Origin: a virus
DNA length: 25,221 bases
Virus record (IMG/VR): IMGVR_UViG_3300021964_000479
Coordinates: 1-25,221 of that record
Reading direction: 5' to 3' (one strand)
This document shows, one piece after another, positions 10,124-25,145 of this stretch. Positions within the stretch are counted from its first letter, which is position 1; the number at the start of each line of letters is the position of its first letter. Position numbers and translations under genes: made by a program. The notes beneath the pieces are model-generated. The model was not told the DNA's origin. It ran no database searches and worked only from the letters and a program-made list of their open reading frames with translations.

Positions 10124-10906
10124 TCATAGATCGCATTCCACAATGTTCATCGGTTGCTCCATGCAAAAGATTCCGCATTCAAAATCCAAATCTTTCATGG
10201 GCGCACCTTTCGCATCGGTTGACAGCTCGTCCAAAAAAATTCGCTCGCCATTAACGCGCACGAGCTTTGCGCCGAGTTCCCTTGACTGTTCGGCCCTCTG
10301 TTTAAACACATCAGGATAGACCTTGCGGGTCCGGTTCCAATATGTAGCCGAGGAGGCTTTTACGCACCCCCGGCAGTTTGCGTTGGGCATTCCGTCAATA
10401 TAGCTCTGCGGCAATCGGATTCCTTCGTTTACCAATATTTGATAGCAATCCGATTTTGTTATTTTATCCTCAATGAGAATTGGTAGTATGTTTTCCCGCT
10501 CCATTGATTTAAACCGATCATATCTGTGCTGCTCCTCCGCCGTGAATCCAAGGACCAGCCAATCGTGATGGTTGTTTGCCTCCCACTCTTGGCGAGCCTT
10601 TTTCTTTAATTCCAAGGTGCATGGCGCGCCAGCAACTCCTGCCATAAACTTTCGATCATTCCAAACTTCCACGCACGACTGATTCGGGTATTTTGAACTT
10701 CGGCACTCCTCAATATAAACTTTGAGCCACTCCTCCACATCTCTAAGAAACCTGCGATTATCTGGATGCTCCTCGACTATCGGATTATTCACGATTCGGA
10801 TGTCGCAGATTGAGCCATATTTCTCCATTGTCTTTAAGGCTGCAACTGCTGATGCAGCACCGCACGAAAACCAAACGACTATGGTGTCTGTTTCTTGTGG
10901 GGTCAT
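10124..10906 (-). CDS. PAPS-reductase-family PP-loop protein
   Basis: 260 residues from the ATG at 10906; the frame is open further but would run into the HNH gene. A modified PP-loop is at 13-19 (FSCGAAS, in place of SGGxDS). Downstream are C96-T97 in APCTLELKK and LGFTAEEQHR (119-128), which correspond to the CT-x-x-LK and G-x-R-x-x-E blocks of PAPS-reductase/DndC-like proteins. Two Cys pairs near the C-terminus (C178/C181 and C244/C248) suggest a metal or Fe-S site. Such proteins adenylate or reduce a sulfur or nucleotide substrate; phage members have uncertain roles, with DNA or RNA thio-modification among the options. It sits between HNH and exonuclease genes. Confidence 0.75.
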   Translation of the reverse strand: MTPQETDTIVVWFSCGAASAVAALKTMEKYGSICDIRIVNNPIVEEHPDNRRFLRDVEEWLKVYIEECRSSKYPNQSCVEVWNDRKFMAGVAGAPCTLELKKKARQEWEANNHHDWLVLGFTAEEQHRYDRFKSMERENILPILIEDKITKSDCYQILVNEGIRLPQSYIDGMPNANCRGCVKASSATYWNRTRKVYPDVFKQRAEQSRELGAKLVRVNGERIFLDELSTDAKGAPMKDLDFECGIFCMEQPMNIVECDL

Positions 10907-10921
10907 AATGGTTCTACTTTG
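10899..10921 (-). repeat. Start-site repeat, copy 2 (PP-loop gene start)
   Basis: The partner of the block at 10092-10114. In this copy the TAG stop of the HNH gene lies inside the repeat, 7 nt before the ATG of the PP-loop gene. Re-use of the same block at two starts implies either a local duplication or a functional initiation element. Confidence 0.75.
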
Positions 10922-11405
10922 CAATCGGGCTTGTAGGATGAAATTTAGCTTTTGCTTGGATGTAGGCGTCTCGCGCCTCTTCCTCAGTGTTGTAATATCC
11001 AATATGTCGGTTCTTAGCGTTCAGAAAGATTTGCGCCCTCCATTTTTGGTATTGCTTGTTAAAATAATACCCTTTTGCTCGCCTCTGGTTGTGTTGATTC
11101 TGTGAAGGCGTGACAAGGCGCAGGTTTTCGCGACGATTGTCGTCTCTCAGGCCGTCAATGTGGTCAACCTCTAGACCGCCTGGGTCTTCGCCTTCGGAAA
11201 TCAACCACGCGAGACGGTGAGCTAAAAAACTTGAGCCGTTAATCATAATCGATCTATATCCGCCTGCGTTTAATGTGCCTGCGACTTTTCCACGCACATT
11301 TGCTGAAACTTTTTCATTCCTTCTCCAGCTCAATACTCCCGTATCAGGATCGTATTGCAATAGCTCAAGAACGATATGTATCGGAGGCAGTGGTTTTGAC
11401 TTCAT
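10914..11405 (-). CDS. HNH endonuclease with AP2-like C-terminal domain
   Basis: 163 residues. A HNH_3-type core is clear: H63-R-L-A-W-L, then E-V-D81-H82-I-D-G, D-N90-R-x-E-N94-L-R and the NQHNQ end. The C-terminal ~55 residues (KGYYFNKQYQKWRAQIFLN, then HIGYYNTEEEARDAYIQA) fit an AP2/ERF-type DNA-binding domain. This pairing is the standard build of free-standing phage homing endonucleases. It is inserted between the sliding clamp (1-nt gap) and the PP-loop gene (7-nt gap) without breaking either. Probably a selfish passenger that nicks or cuts phage genomes lacking it. Confidence 0.88.
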   Translation of the reverse strand: MKSKPLPPIHIVLELLQYDPDTGVLSWRRNEKVSANVRGKVAGTLNAGGYRSIMINGSSFLAHRLAWLISEGEDPGGLEVDHIDGLRDDNRRENLRLVTPSQNQHNQRRAKGYYFNKQYQKWRAQIFLNAKNRHIGYYNTEEEARDAYIQAKAKFHPTSPIAK

Positions 11406-13118: not shown

Positions 13119-13574
13119 ATGAAAAGAATTATTGCACTCACTCTGCTTGTTTTTGCGACAGGCAACTCCCAAGAAAAAAGGGCATTCCGTCCAATTTTGC
13201 AATCTGGCGTATTGCCTAGCCGAATTGTCAAAACGGCAAAATTGTGGAACGGCAACTATTTTCGCAAAGGCCAGTCTTGCCAATGCGCTAATTGGGTTAG
13301 CGAGGTAGTAAAGTCGTCCGGTGGAGGCAGGCCGCTGTATTCCTCAATGGCGCGTAATTGGCTCAAATGGGGCAAGGCGGTCAGCAAATCGGCAATGAAG
13401 CCTGGGGATGTGATTGTGACCTGGCGAGGCAGCAAGGGCGGTAAAAGCGGTCACGTTTTGATTTACCTGGGAAACGGCAAGTGTATTCACCGCCCCACTA
13501 AATCAAAACCGGTGCAACTCACAGACTTCTCTCTTTACCAGTCTAAAATTCTTGGAGTCAGGAGAGCAATATAA
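13119..13574 (+). CDS. Secreted NlpC/P60- or CHAP-like cysteine peptidase
   Basis: 151 residues. Residues 1-17 (MKRIIALTLLVFATGNS) form a signal peptide. The mature part has C56 in QCANWVSEVV (catalytic Cys at the start of a helix), then KPGDVIVTW, and H112 in GHVLIYLGNGKCIHRP (catalytic His strand). This order is that of NlpC/P60 and CHAP amidases or endopeptidases that cut peptide bonds in peptidoglycan. It is the first gene right of the divergent promoter, far from the lysis cassette, and is followed 8 nt later by the methyltransferase. That points to an early envelope role, such as superinfection exclusion or wall remodelling, rather than lysis; this is inference. Confidence 0.75.
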   Translation: MKRIIALTLLVFATGNSQEKRAFRPILQSGVLPSRIVKTAKLWNGNYFRKGQSCQCANWVSEVVKSSGGGRPLYSSMARNWLKWGKAVSKSAMKPGDVIVTWRGSKGGKSGHVLIYLGNGKCIHRPTKSKPVQLTDFSLYQSKILGVRRAI

Positions 13575-13582
13575 ACGATCTT

Positions 13583-14656
13583 ATGAGAAATTATGATAAT
13601 ACTACCAAAATCCGACACCTTAGCCTCTGTAGTGGATACGAAGGCATTGGACTTGGACTCCGAAGAGTTCTCCCAAATCTGCGAGAGATCGCTTACGTGG
13701 AGAGGGAAGGATTCGCAGTCGCGAACCTGGTTGCAAAGATGGAAGCGGGTAAAATGGATGCAGCACCTGTGTTCACGGACGTTAAAACCTTCCCATACCG
13801 AAAGTTTCGTGGATTTGTGGACATCCTCTCTGGAGGATTCCCGTGCCAACCTTTCAGCACTGCTGGAACGCGTCAAGGAGTTGACGACCCCCGACACCTG
13901 TTCCCCTACATTGCCAACGGAATCAGAGAGTGCCAACCCCGAATTGTTTTCCTCGAAAATGTTGAAGGAATTATCTCAAGTAAAACCAAAGACGGAGAGT
14001 CAGTTCTCCAATATGTACTCCGAACATTGGAAGGCATGGGTTACAGAGCAACGGCAGGAATATTCTCAGCGGCTGAAGTCGGCGCACCTCACCAACGAAA
14101 ACGGGTCTTCATCCTTGGTGTGGCTGACTGCAACAACGGACTCGGCAACAGATCGCAGCTCGAAATATGCACAAGGGGGGATGCCGCTATCGTTAGCAGT
14201 GAAAAACTGGCCGACTCCGGCAACCAGAGATCACAAAGGAAGCTATTCTCCAGCGGCGTTAATTCGGAAGGACGGAAAGAGTCGGATGGACGGTCTTCCT
14301 CAAGTTGTCGAATACGACAAAACGAGTTGGCCGACTCCGACAGTAGCGGAGGGATCGAAGATCGGGAATCAACCCAATTACGGGCAGAAGGGTCTGTCGA
14401 ATCACCCATCCATCGTTGGCCTTCCAGACCGGGAGAAACTCAACAAGAGTGGGAAGAGCAAAGAGTCATTGCCGATTCATATACCGAAGTCGAGGGGCAA
14501 GCTGAATCCAGATTGGGTGGAGCAACTGATGGGGCTTCAAGTTGGGTGGACCCAACTGCCAACCGAGTGGATCGACTCCGATTGCTAGGAAACGGAGTAG
14601 TCCCGGCGACAGCAGCAAAAGCTTTTGTCACGCTATTAAAAAGACTCAATCCATAA
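13583..14656 (+). CDS. dcm: C5 cytosine-specific DNA methyltransferase
   Basis: 357 residues with the complete motif set: motif I SLCSGYEGIGLGL (14-26), motif IV GGFPCQPFS with catalytic C88, motif VI ENV (125-127), motif VIII Q-R-K-R (171-174) after GAPH, and motif X LGNGVVP (335-341). The target-recognition region (~180-330) is unusual: hydrophilic, Ser/Arg/Glu-rich, with VADC, LADS, LADS and IADS at 180, 209, 249 and 296. It methylates cytosine C5 in duplex DNA, probably shielding phage DNA from host restriction. Nearly the whole gene is overprinted in the +1 frame by a 331-codon reading frame, which probably constrains the recognition region. Start ATG at 13583; no strong Shine-Dalgarno. 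Confidence 0.9.
   Translation: MRNYDNTTKIRHLSLCSGYEGIGLGLRRVLPNLREIAYVEREGFAVANLVAKMEAGKMDAAPVFTDVKTFPYRKFRGFVDILSGGFPCQPFSTAGTRQGVDDPRHLFPYIANGIRECQPRIVFLENVEGIISSKTKDGESVLQYVLRTLEGMGYRATAGIFSAAEVGAPHQRKRVFILGVADCNNGLGNRSQLEICTRGDAAIVSSEKLADSGNQRSQRKLFSSGVNSEGRKESDGRSSSSCRIRQNELADSDSSGGIEDRESTQLRAEGSVESPIHRWPSRPGETQQEWEEQRVIADSYTEVEGQAESRLGGATDGASSWVDPTANRVDRLRLLGNGVVPATAAKAFVTLLKRLNP
13593..14588 (+). CDS. Overprinted protein inside the methyltransferase gene (WPTP/LNPDWVE type)
   Basis: 331 residues, wholly nested in the +1 frame of the methyltransferase gene, with its ATG 10 nt after the host gene's ATG. It does not read like random shadow. It carries TSSLEDSRANLSAL (77-90), HWKAWVTEQRQEYSQRLKSA (145-164), WPTP at 206 and 246 each followed by a T/A-rich turn (ATRDHKG, TVAEGSK), LSNHPSIVG, and LNPDWVEQLMG (304-314) followed by GWT. 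From memory, proteins with WPTPTARD, EYSQR and LNPxWVEWLMG blocks are common in phage and metagenome annotation, often labelled as methyltransferase-related. Function unknown; a partner or regulator of the enzyme is a guess. An open run of 331 codons would arise by chance in uniform random sequence with odds near one in ten million. Confidence 0.6.
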   Translation: MIILPKSDTLASVVDTKALDLDSEEFSQICERSLTWRGKDSQSRTWLQRWKRVKWMQHLCSRTLKPSHTESFVDLWTSSLEDSRANLSALLERVKELTTPDTCSPTLPTESESANPELFSSKMLKELSQVKPKTESQFSNMYSEHWKAWVTEQRQEYSQRLKSAHLTNENGSSSLVWLTATTDSATDRSSKYAQGGMPLSLAVKNWPTPATRDHKGSYSPAALIRKDGKSRMDGLPQVVEYDKTSWPTPTVAEGSKIGNQPNYGQKGLSNHPSIVGLPDREKLNKSGKSKESLPIHIPKSRGKLNPDWVEQLMGLQVGWTQLPTEWIDSDC

Positions 14657-23192: not shown

Positions 23193-25145
23193 ATGTGTTT
23201 TCTTTTTAAGGTGAAGACGCAGCAGAAACAGACATGGTATAACCTTTCCCAAGAAGGTTCAGTAGCCGATATATCCATTCACGACGAAATTGGTGGATTC
23301 GGAGTATCAGGCAGCAGCTTCCTCGCAGAGATGCAGGCGATGGAAGGAGTAGACGAAATCAATCTTTCGATACACTCTCCCGGCGGCGATGTGCTGGAAG
23401 GATGGGCGATCTACAACGCTATCAAAAACTTTGAAGGCATCGTATCCGCAAAGGTAGAAGGATTTGCTGGCAGCATGGCAAGTGTCATTCTCATGGCGGC
23501 TGACGAGATTATAATGCCGGCCAACAGCTATTTGATGATTCACAATCCGTATGTAGGACTAGTTGGCGATTCGCAAGCACTTGGAGATGCTGCCGCCACA
23601 CTGGAGAAAATCCAAAACAGCATTGTTTCGGTATACGTCGAGCGGACCGGACTAACACGCGAGCAGGTCCAAGATTTGATGGATCGCGAAACATTTATGG
23701 ATGGAAATGAGGCTGTTGATCTTGGTTTTGCAGATCGAGTCGAGGAAAGTTTCAAGGCCGCTGCGTTCAAGGAATCATGGGCGAACAGCATTACAAAAGA
23801 TTTACCAAAAGGGTTGGTTTTCGGGGAAATTTCCGAACAGCCCGAAACAAAACCAACAAACCAACAACTACCTCACACCATGAGCGAAGAAGTAAAGCCG
23901 GAAGCACCGGCCATCAACATCAAGGACATCCGCGAGGAGGAGCGTCACCGCATCGGAGAAATTTCCGCTATCGGCCAGCGTTTCAACGTGGACGAGAAGG
24001 AAATCAACTCTGCAATCGACAGCGGCAAAGCTACTGACGAGTTTCGCGCCGAGGTGATGAACAATTTCGACCCAAGCAAATTTGCAGCAGGCGGCTCGAA
24101 TGAGTCTGTCTACGTCGGAGAAAAAGAAGTTCAGAGCTATTCTGTTCTGAAAGCAGTCAACGAGCATATCAACGGCGGATTGACCGGCCTGGAGCGCGAG
24201 GTTCAAGACGAGCTTTCTCAGCGTTTCCGCGCAGCATCCGGCGACACTCCAAAGGGCATTCTCATTCCTGGCGAAGTTTCTCACGGAGTAAAGAACGCCG
24301 CTACAGTTGGAACTACCACCTCTGGTGGTCACACCGTAGCAACGGAATTGCAGCCAGTCGTCGATTATTTCGAGGACTACTCGCTTCTTCCACAGCTCGG
24401 AGCAACGATTTTTCGCGATGCCACCGGCAATCTGAGCTTTCCAACTGCGACAAGCGGCTATACCGGCAGCTGGGACGCGGAGACTGACACGATTGCAAAC
24501 GCAGACGCGGTTTTCTCCAACTTCACCATGACTCCCAAGCGAGTGGGTGCAGGAACTAGCGTTTCTCTCCAACTTCTCCAGCAGTCATCTGTTGATTTCG
24601 AGGGCTGGATTCGATCCAAGCTCGGCCAAGGCATCTCGATTGCCATTGACCGTGGAGCATTCACCGGAGCAGGCGGCGACGCACCAACCGGCATCCTCTC
24701 CGCATCTGGAACGACCGCTTACACTTGGCAGGTCGGCAACTCTGCTCACCAAAACGTGATCGACCAGTGGAAAGAGCTTCGGGATTCCAAGGCTCCGCTT
24801 ACATCGGCCAAGTGGCTTTCTGAGCCAGGCGTCACTGCTGACTGGATGGCGACTCCAAAAGAGTCCGGCCAGGCCAGCTACGTCATCGACGAGAATCCCA
24901 ACGGAACTCAGCGCGCACTCGGTTACGAGTATTACGACCACACCGACATCACTGCTAACAAGGTAATCTTCGGAGAGTTCAGCTATCTCTTGGTATGCCT
25001 TTGGGGAGGAATTGACCTCGTTGTTGATCCTTACAGCAGCAAGAACTCGGGAACGGTTGAGCTGTTCGCGAACGCATTCGCTGACGCAGCACTCGAGCAG
25101 CCTTCCGCCTTCGTTATCGGAGACAACGGAACGACTCACGCATAA
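23193..25145 (+). CDS. Prohead protease fused to HK97-fold major capsid protein
   Basis: 650 residues. Residues ~22-185 are a ClpP/S14-type protease: INLSIHSPGGDVLEGWAIYNAI, catalytic S94 in GFAGSMAS, H117 in YLMIHNP, and an Asp near 164-170. Residues ~230-335 are charged and helical (DIREEERHRIGEISAIGQRF) like the delta/scaffold part of capsid precursors. Residues ~340-650 are an HK97-fold capsid domain (TVATELQPVVDYFEDYSLLPQLGA, FTMTPKRVGAGTSVSLQLLQQSS, DRGAFTGAGG, GIDLVVDPYS). The frame is open throughout, and the in-frame ATG at 23880 at the junction lacks a Shine-Dalgarno, so one polypeptide that self-cleaves is the simplest reading. Confidence 0.9.
   Translation: MCFLFKVKTQQKQTWYNLSQEGSVADISIHDEIGGFGVSGSSFLAEMQAMEGVDEINLSIHSPGGDVLEGWAIYNAIKNFEGIVSAKVEGFAGSMASVILMAADEIIMPANSYLMIHNPYVGLVGDSQALGDAAATLEKIQNSIVSVYVERTGLTREQVQDLMDRETFMDGNEAVDLGFADRVEESFKAAAFKESWANSITKDLPKGLVFGEISEQPETKPTNQQLPHTMSEEVKPEAPAINIKDIREEERHRIGEISAIGQRFNVDEKEINSAIDSGKATDEFRAEVMNNFDPSKFAAGGSNESVYVGEKEVQSYSVLKAVNEHINGGLTGLEREVQDELSQRFRAASGDTPKGILIPGEVSHGVKNAATVGTTTSGGHTVATELQPVVDYFEDYSLLPQLGATIFRDATGNLSFPTATSGYTGSWDAETDTIANADAVFSNFTMTPKRVGAGTSVSLQLLQQSSVDFEGWIRSKLGQGISIAIDRGAFTGAGGDAPTGILSASGTTAYTWQVGNSAHQNVIDQWKELRDSKAPLTSAKWLSEPGVTADWMATPKESGQASYVIDENPNGTQRALGYEYYDHTDITANKVIFGEFSYLLVCLWGGIDLVVDPYSSKNSGTVELFANAFADAALEQPSAFVIGDNGTTHA

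Follow-up and report, generated by a model that had tools for sequence, protein, structure and literature searches.

Two overlapping reading frames of a phage locus very probably encode one heterodimeric cytosine-C5 DNA methyltransferase

The analyzed DNA (hereafter, the window) is the whole stretch of 25,221 nucleotides comprising positions 1 to 25,221 of the IMG/VR virus record IMGVR_UViG_3300021964_000479. It is a fragment of a tailed phage, with genes of the terminase, portal, capsid and primase/helicase; megablast of the whole window against phages gave no match. Two overlapping open reading frames, designated alpha and beta, were found at positions 13583-14656. The features of the locus, with putative subunit assignments, are as follows:

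13560..13564, + strand: AGGAG, a possible Shine-Dalgarno sequence, weakly placed at 18 nt upstream of the alpha ATG
13583..13595, + strand: paired starts read from the sequence, alpha ATG at 13583 and beta ATG at 13593 (offset +10)
13583..14656, + strand: predicted alpha subunit, 357 aa; PF00145, E 1.3e-35 (profile positions 2-224 of 324); phrog_363, E 1.9e-53
13593..14588, + strand: predicted beta subunit, 331 aa, in the +1 frame of alpha; phrog_1008, E 8.7e-22; conserved in the +1 frame across the family
13613..14128, + strand: alpha catalytic domain, motifs I-VIII; best PDB fold match the large domain of M.HhaI, E 2.7e-15; hmmsearch against the PDB
13841-13849, + strand: PCQ with C88, the predicted catalytic Cys of alpha
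14013..14102, + strand: predicted core helix of beta (residues 141-170, ...WKAWVTEQRQEYSQRLKSA...), on DNA that also encodes alpha motifs VII-VIII; pLDDT up to 94
14168..14548, + strand: alpha linker, residues 196-322, predicted disordered, pLDDT about 40; stop avoidance
14208..14339, + strand: two WPTP repeats of the putative beta target-recognition region (TRD), W206 and W246, from the alignment
14499..14558, + strand: putative beta motif IX (KLNPDWVEQLMGLQVGWTQL); hhalign to single-chain methyltransferases, 96.2%, E 2.6e-9
14564..14647, + strand: alpha motif X (LRLLGNGVVPATAAKAF) and terminal helices; pLDDT 76-96; match to the alpha-X profile

The coordinates, the +1 frame, its 331 codons and the beta start 10 nt after the alpha ATG, as given in the original prediction, were all confirmed, and C88 and the blocks EYSQR, WPTP (twice), LSNHPSIVG and LNPDWVEQLMG are present as quoted there. 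The stop codon of an upstream NlpC/P60-type gene lies at 13572-13574, with the alpha ATG eight bases after it, so reinitiation is possible.

The catalytic part of the enzyme is represented in the alpha frame. Motifs I, IV, VI and VIII (QRxR) are present, PCQ of motif IV and ENV of motif VI being invariant in the alignment, and a profile built from 43 alpha proteins matched M.HhaI and M.HaeIII in the PDB across the catalytic motifs. The match to the Pfam family DNA_methylase (PF00145) covers only the profile positions listed above, and the AF2 model of alpha is confident only at residues ~5-190 and 328-355, with residues 196-322 predicted to be disordered. This linker is the DNA of the beta TRD read in the alpha frame; WPTPT of beta, for example, appears there as LADSD. 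Neither the Pfam alignment nor the AF2 model of alpha contains motif IX or a TRD. The partial Pfam alignment and the disordered middle of the model thus indicate that alpha consists of motifs I-VIII and X, lacks the TRD and motif IX, and is not a complete C5 methyltransferase. The original prediction of a complete gene with all catalytic motifs has to be corrected in this respect.

The beta frame is composed of an N-terminal extension, the core helix, the xPTP-repeat TRD and motif IX. No Pfam match was found for beta, and the beta profile had no significant match in the PDB; its match, phrog_1008, is labelled 'DNA methyltransferase', so that the database family with such sequence blocks, named in the original prediction, does exist. 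The near-invariant block LNPxWVExLMGxPxGWT is located at the beta C-terminus in the family alignment, and in the window it is represented by LNPDWVEQLMG..GWT. BLASTP of the window beta against a single-chain enzyme gave short, insignificant matches only; profile methods were therefore used, and by hhalign this C-terminal block aligned to motif IX of single-chain methyltransferases with the values listed above. The AF2 model of beta alone was of low confidence (mean pLDDT 56, pTM 0.24) and was for this reason left out of the fold search. By these alignments, beta carries the xPTP-repeat TRD and motif IX, the parts missing from alpha. Across the family, the beta frame contains between 0 and 6 xPTP repeats, a variation that suggests modular or multiple target specificities.

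Viral and bacterial scans, together with phage records, yielded 262 loci, in 235 of which motif IX lies in the +1 frame relative to the shared frame of motifs I-VIII and X. This supports the prediction that phage C5 methyltransferase genes are widely overprinted, with two products per locus. With the actinophage loci added later, the set also contains 30 loci whose motifs IX and X are in frame with the catalytic motifs, and 13 in which both lie in the +1 frame. Since the two viral scans share some contigs, the raw count includes duplicates, and the tests were performed on dereplicated overprinted loci (n = 109). The bacterial records belong to Pseudomonadota, Bacillota, Bacteroidota, Myxococcota, Planctomycetota and others, and many of them are MAGs, which makes the host assignment loose. 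One enterobacterial beta alone matched 211 phage records.

Two classes were distinguished among the overprinted loci. The +1 frame is fully open over the catalytic domain in 74 of the 109 (7 expected), forming the long-beta class, to which the layout of the window corresponds. The remaining 35 hold all of the +1 stops in this region, and in these short-beta loci beta must start further downstream. A tree built from the catalytic domains places 72 of the 74 long-beta loci in one supported group of 86 rows, with short-beta and single-chain loci mostly on the opposite side. The move of motif X to the beta frame happened repeatedly: its label changes 10 times on the tree, and at least nine of these changes are forced by well-supported branches. 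Loci L272 and L288 share identical catalytic domains, but motifs IX and X lie in the +1 frame in only one of them, the other being single-chain; this is either a very recent frame switch or a sequencing error.

The original prediction put the probability of the open +1 frame arising by chance at about 1e-7 under uniform composition; this is the wrong null, and it was replaced by codon nulls with the alpha protein fixed. Permuting the synonymous codons gave a mean of 6.8 stops in the +1 frame, and 1 of 20,000 trials left it fully open. When codons were sampled according to the usage of neighbouring genes, the mean was 9.5 stops and the frame was open in 0 of 20,000 trials. Chance openness of the window's +1 frame is unlikely from the single gene and is settled by the family-wide data. 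Over the catalytic domain of the 109 loci, +1 stops, which if frequent would have counted against the original prediction, numbered 109 against 348 expected. No depletion was seen in the +2-frame control of the same loci (782 vs 781) or when single-chain controls were read in +1 (34 vs 40). In distant long-beta pairs, +1 residues are more alike than alpha forces (z 38; z 10 for the +2 control); the corresponding values for the first 40 columns were 17 vs 3, and short-beta loci showed nothing there (-0.1). In the long- and short-beta loci, xPTP repeats were found only in the +1 frame; a few of the 'single-chain' controls (L246, L279 and L284) also keep such repeats in +1, which makes this control conservative. 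The profile of the beta N-terminal half also matches the +1 frame of single-chain genes, and matches to this half were therefore not counted as evidence.

Across the TRD, the alpha frame of long-beta loci contains 21 stops vs 308 expected and is open in 72 of 74 loci (3.4 expected); in short-beta loci, 0 stops were found vs 98 expected. Through this region, alpha-frame stops number 0-0.3 per locus when motif X is in alpha and 7.3 per locus where it has moved to beta, and single-chain genes have 4.0 stops in the +1 frame. Openness of the alpha frame across the TRD is maintained only where alpha must extend to motif X.

The distribution of substitutions in close pairs was also frame-specific. 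Because the window and its nearest relative share 79% identity over the catalytic domain, these tests rest on other members of the family. In the catalytic region, substitutions are fastest at alpha position 3 (0.34), and in the TRD the maximum shifts to alpha position 1, which is position 3 of the beta codons (0.42, the other two positions being at 0.31 each); single-chain genes keep their maximum at position 3 (0.39). Conservation of fourfold sites in the catalytic region was not clearly stronger than in single-chain genes. As fourfold sites alone did not separate the classes, the constraint on the beta N-terminal half is regarded as moderate, and frame-specific permutation tests were used instead. 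Computationally, both frames are coding across the family.

In 61 of the 74 long-beta loci, the alpha and beta starts are located within -5 to +10 nt of each other; such paired starts were found in 8% of shuffled upstream DNA, in 2 of 23 short-beta loci and in 0 of 30 single-chain loci. The commonest paired form, ATGTG/GTGTG/TTGTG, is present in 40 of the 74, and GTG is the sole possible alpha start in 13. The window contains no dual-frame ATGTG or GTGTG start; two ATG codons 10 nt apart are present instead. Sites of the AUGUG/GUGUG type have been shown experimentally to start both frames in E. coli (PMC9841429). It appears somewhat likely that this large family of phage methyltransferases starts two fully overlapping frames at one ribosome-binding site by means of adjacent starts (ATGTG and variants); the two subunits of an obligate enzyme would then be produced together from a single set of bases. 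If true, ambiguous initiation would be in broad natural use here and conserved over a long time, and the genes would have switched repeatedly among single-chain, split and overprinted forms. The paired ATGTG starts offer a natural family for testing ambiguous translation initiation.

The two overlapping frames of the locus very probably specify the two subunits of a single heterodimeric cytosine-C5 DNA methyltransferase. Alpha would fold as the large catalytic domain, responsible for SAM binding and containing the catalytic Cys88, with motifs I-VIII closed by motif X; beta would supply the small domain with the xPTP-repeat target-recognition region and motif IX, and its helix and N-terminal extension probably dock on alpha. 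Translation of alpha would continue across the TRD DNA solely because its motif X lies beyond it, leaving a long disordered loop in alpha. With starts a few bases apart on one mRNA, synthesis of the subunits would be near-equal, and the assembled enzyme would mark the phage genome, the simplest purpose being protection against host restriction. No recognized restriction endonuclease was found among the scanned genes of the window, which fits an orphan phage enzyme. A composite of alpha (I-VIII), beta (TRD-IX) and alpha (X) aligned to PF00145 over positions 2-317 of 324, as compared to 2-224 for alpha alone, and raised the Pfam score only slightly, from 123.9 to 128.7 bits. For this enzyme, we infer heterodimer assembly, methylation activity, the mode of translation and the anti-restriction role.

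The same composite order of modules could be obtained in one chain by programmed ribosomal frameshifting, from alpha I-VIII to the +1 frame for TRD-IX and back for motif X; the canonical order of modules in the DNA and the existence of single-chain relatives agree with this. Such a mechanism is nevertheless very improbable, as it requires two opposite shifts per gene and leaves unexplained the openness and conservation of the +1 frame upstream over motifs I-VIII, the conserved start of beta itself, and the alpha frame that is open through the TRD and decays once motif X moves to beta. An alpha sufficient as an enzyme, with beta as an accessory such as a regulator or inhibitor, is improbable as well: all motifs used in catalysis are located in alpha, as the original prediction assumed in proposing a specificity or inhibitor partner, but alpha lacks motif IX and an ordered TRD, and beta carries exactly these two in the order of the single-chain enzymes. 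Since the parts found in beta are missing from alpha and are in frame in single-chain relatives, the best interpretation is that the two products are halves of one enzyme; the specificity part of that proposal is the best fit, and the inhibitor part was not supported.

There is hardly any likelihood that codon bias in alpha has produced the +1 frame as a non-coding by-product. The +1 profile of the catalytic region does also match the +1 frame of single-chain genes, and similarity alone is no proof of coding; against a by-product stand the stop depletion, the frame-specific residue conservation, the switch of periodicity and the paired starts, each with +2 and single-chain negative controls, and by these four lines of evidence this explanation is refuted for the family.

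In M.EcoHK31I, the beta subunit is nested in alpha in another frame. This methyltransferase (YGGCCR) consists of two polypeptides, the larger carrying motifs I-VIII and X and the smaller motif IX, with the TRD predicted in the large subunit (PMC3404938). By published layout, the computed arrangement of the window is alike: alpha also has motifs I-VIII and X without IX, which is located on the second frame within the alpha gene. The window differs in that the TRD (xPTP) is in beta and alpha residues 196-322 are disordered, whereas in M.EcoHK31I the TRD is predicted in the large subunit; in addition, the window beta begins next to the alpha start and extends over almost all of the alpha gene. 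The window enzyme is best read, from its motif layout, as a two-subunit C5 methyltransferase architecturally like M.EcoHK31I, a variant with the TRD in a beta that covers nearly the whole alpha gene. The kind of enzyme is already known; the widespread variant is new, and literature text searches of open-access papers revealed no paper describing this family-wide split.

M.AquI (CYCGRG) is split between motif VIII and motif IX (PMC3404938). Motifs IX and X are there on one subunit, unlike the window, in which X is in the alpha frame; the M.AquI layout, with IX and X in the beta frame, is matched only by 13 other loci (L023, L026, L035 and others). Single-chain C5 methyltransferases of actinophages, such as gp75 of Mycobacterium phage Estave1 and its relatives, have the same LPTPxARD repeats and IX and X modules. 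In Estave1 gp75 and many other actinophage proteins, the LPTPxARD repeats, RLxxAFPEWMMGWPAGWV (IX) and LRIIGNGVVPQQA (X) are located in one chain, and residues 203-366 of the Estave1 protein match phrog_1008 (E 9e-50), the profile also matched by beta. All modules of these enzymes are in one frame and the TRD is not overprinted, unlike that of the window. In Gordonia phage CheeseTouch (L246, 1441-2520 and 1493-2293), motifs I-VIII, IX and X are in one frame and LPTP repeats in a +1 ORF, which is a third way of dividing the modules; in L279 and L284, xPTP repeats were likewise found only in +1.

Overlapping ORFs of C5 methyltransferases have been described in Streptococcus phages (P0092; PMC5601072; Tn5252 cited in PMC5601072), likewise as two ORFs in different frames of one methyltransferase gene. 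They were rejected as the same system: the long ORF, when translated, is complete, with motif IX in frame (RKLTPRECWRLQGFPDWAF). The Streptococcus phage loci L257 (1797-2669 and 1954-2376) and L252 contain a complete C5 methyltransferase, and their +1 frame holds a different conserved ORF, ending ...CSLSDILEEQVEDKYFLS; this is a separate kind of overlap, which may encode an extra TRD-like piece.

The overprinted phage records inspected are annotated unevenly: only alpha (e.g., C75C1), only beta (PIN1, Alfacinha3) or both frames. The latter is the case for two members of the family, Escherichia phage K1ind2 (C-specific methylase/Mte8-like) and Paenibacillus phage Tadhana, the beta of which is of the short type and starts well inside alpha; neither record states a mechanism. 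In the public records of L003 and L004, only beta is annotated as methyltransferase and the catalytic alpha is omitted. The proposed division accounts for many strange 'DNA methyltransferase' annotations of phage genes, hypothetical or duplicated, in which one half of the enzyme, sometimes the non-catalytic one, is often all that is logged. A conserved overlap of ~1 kb with a function assigned to both frames is rare, and the single-chain and split relatives serve as internal controls, making the evolution of overlapping genes directly testable.

Other genes of the window include a ClpP-like protease fused with an HK97-type capsid protein (23193-25145) and a phosphoadenosine phosphosulfate reductase-like gene on the minus strand (10124-11002). 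A gene of the latter type is also located near the methyltransferase in Klebsiella phages PIN1 and Soft.
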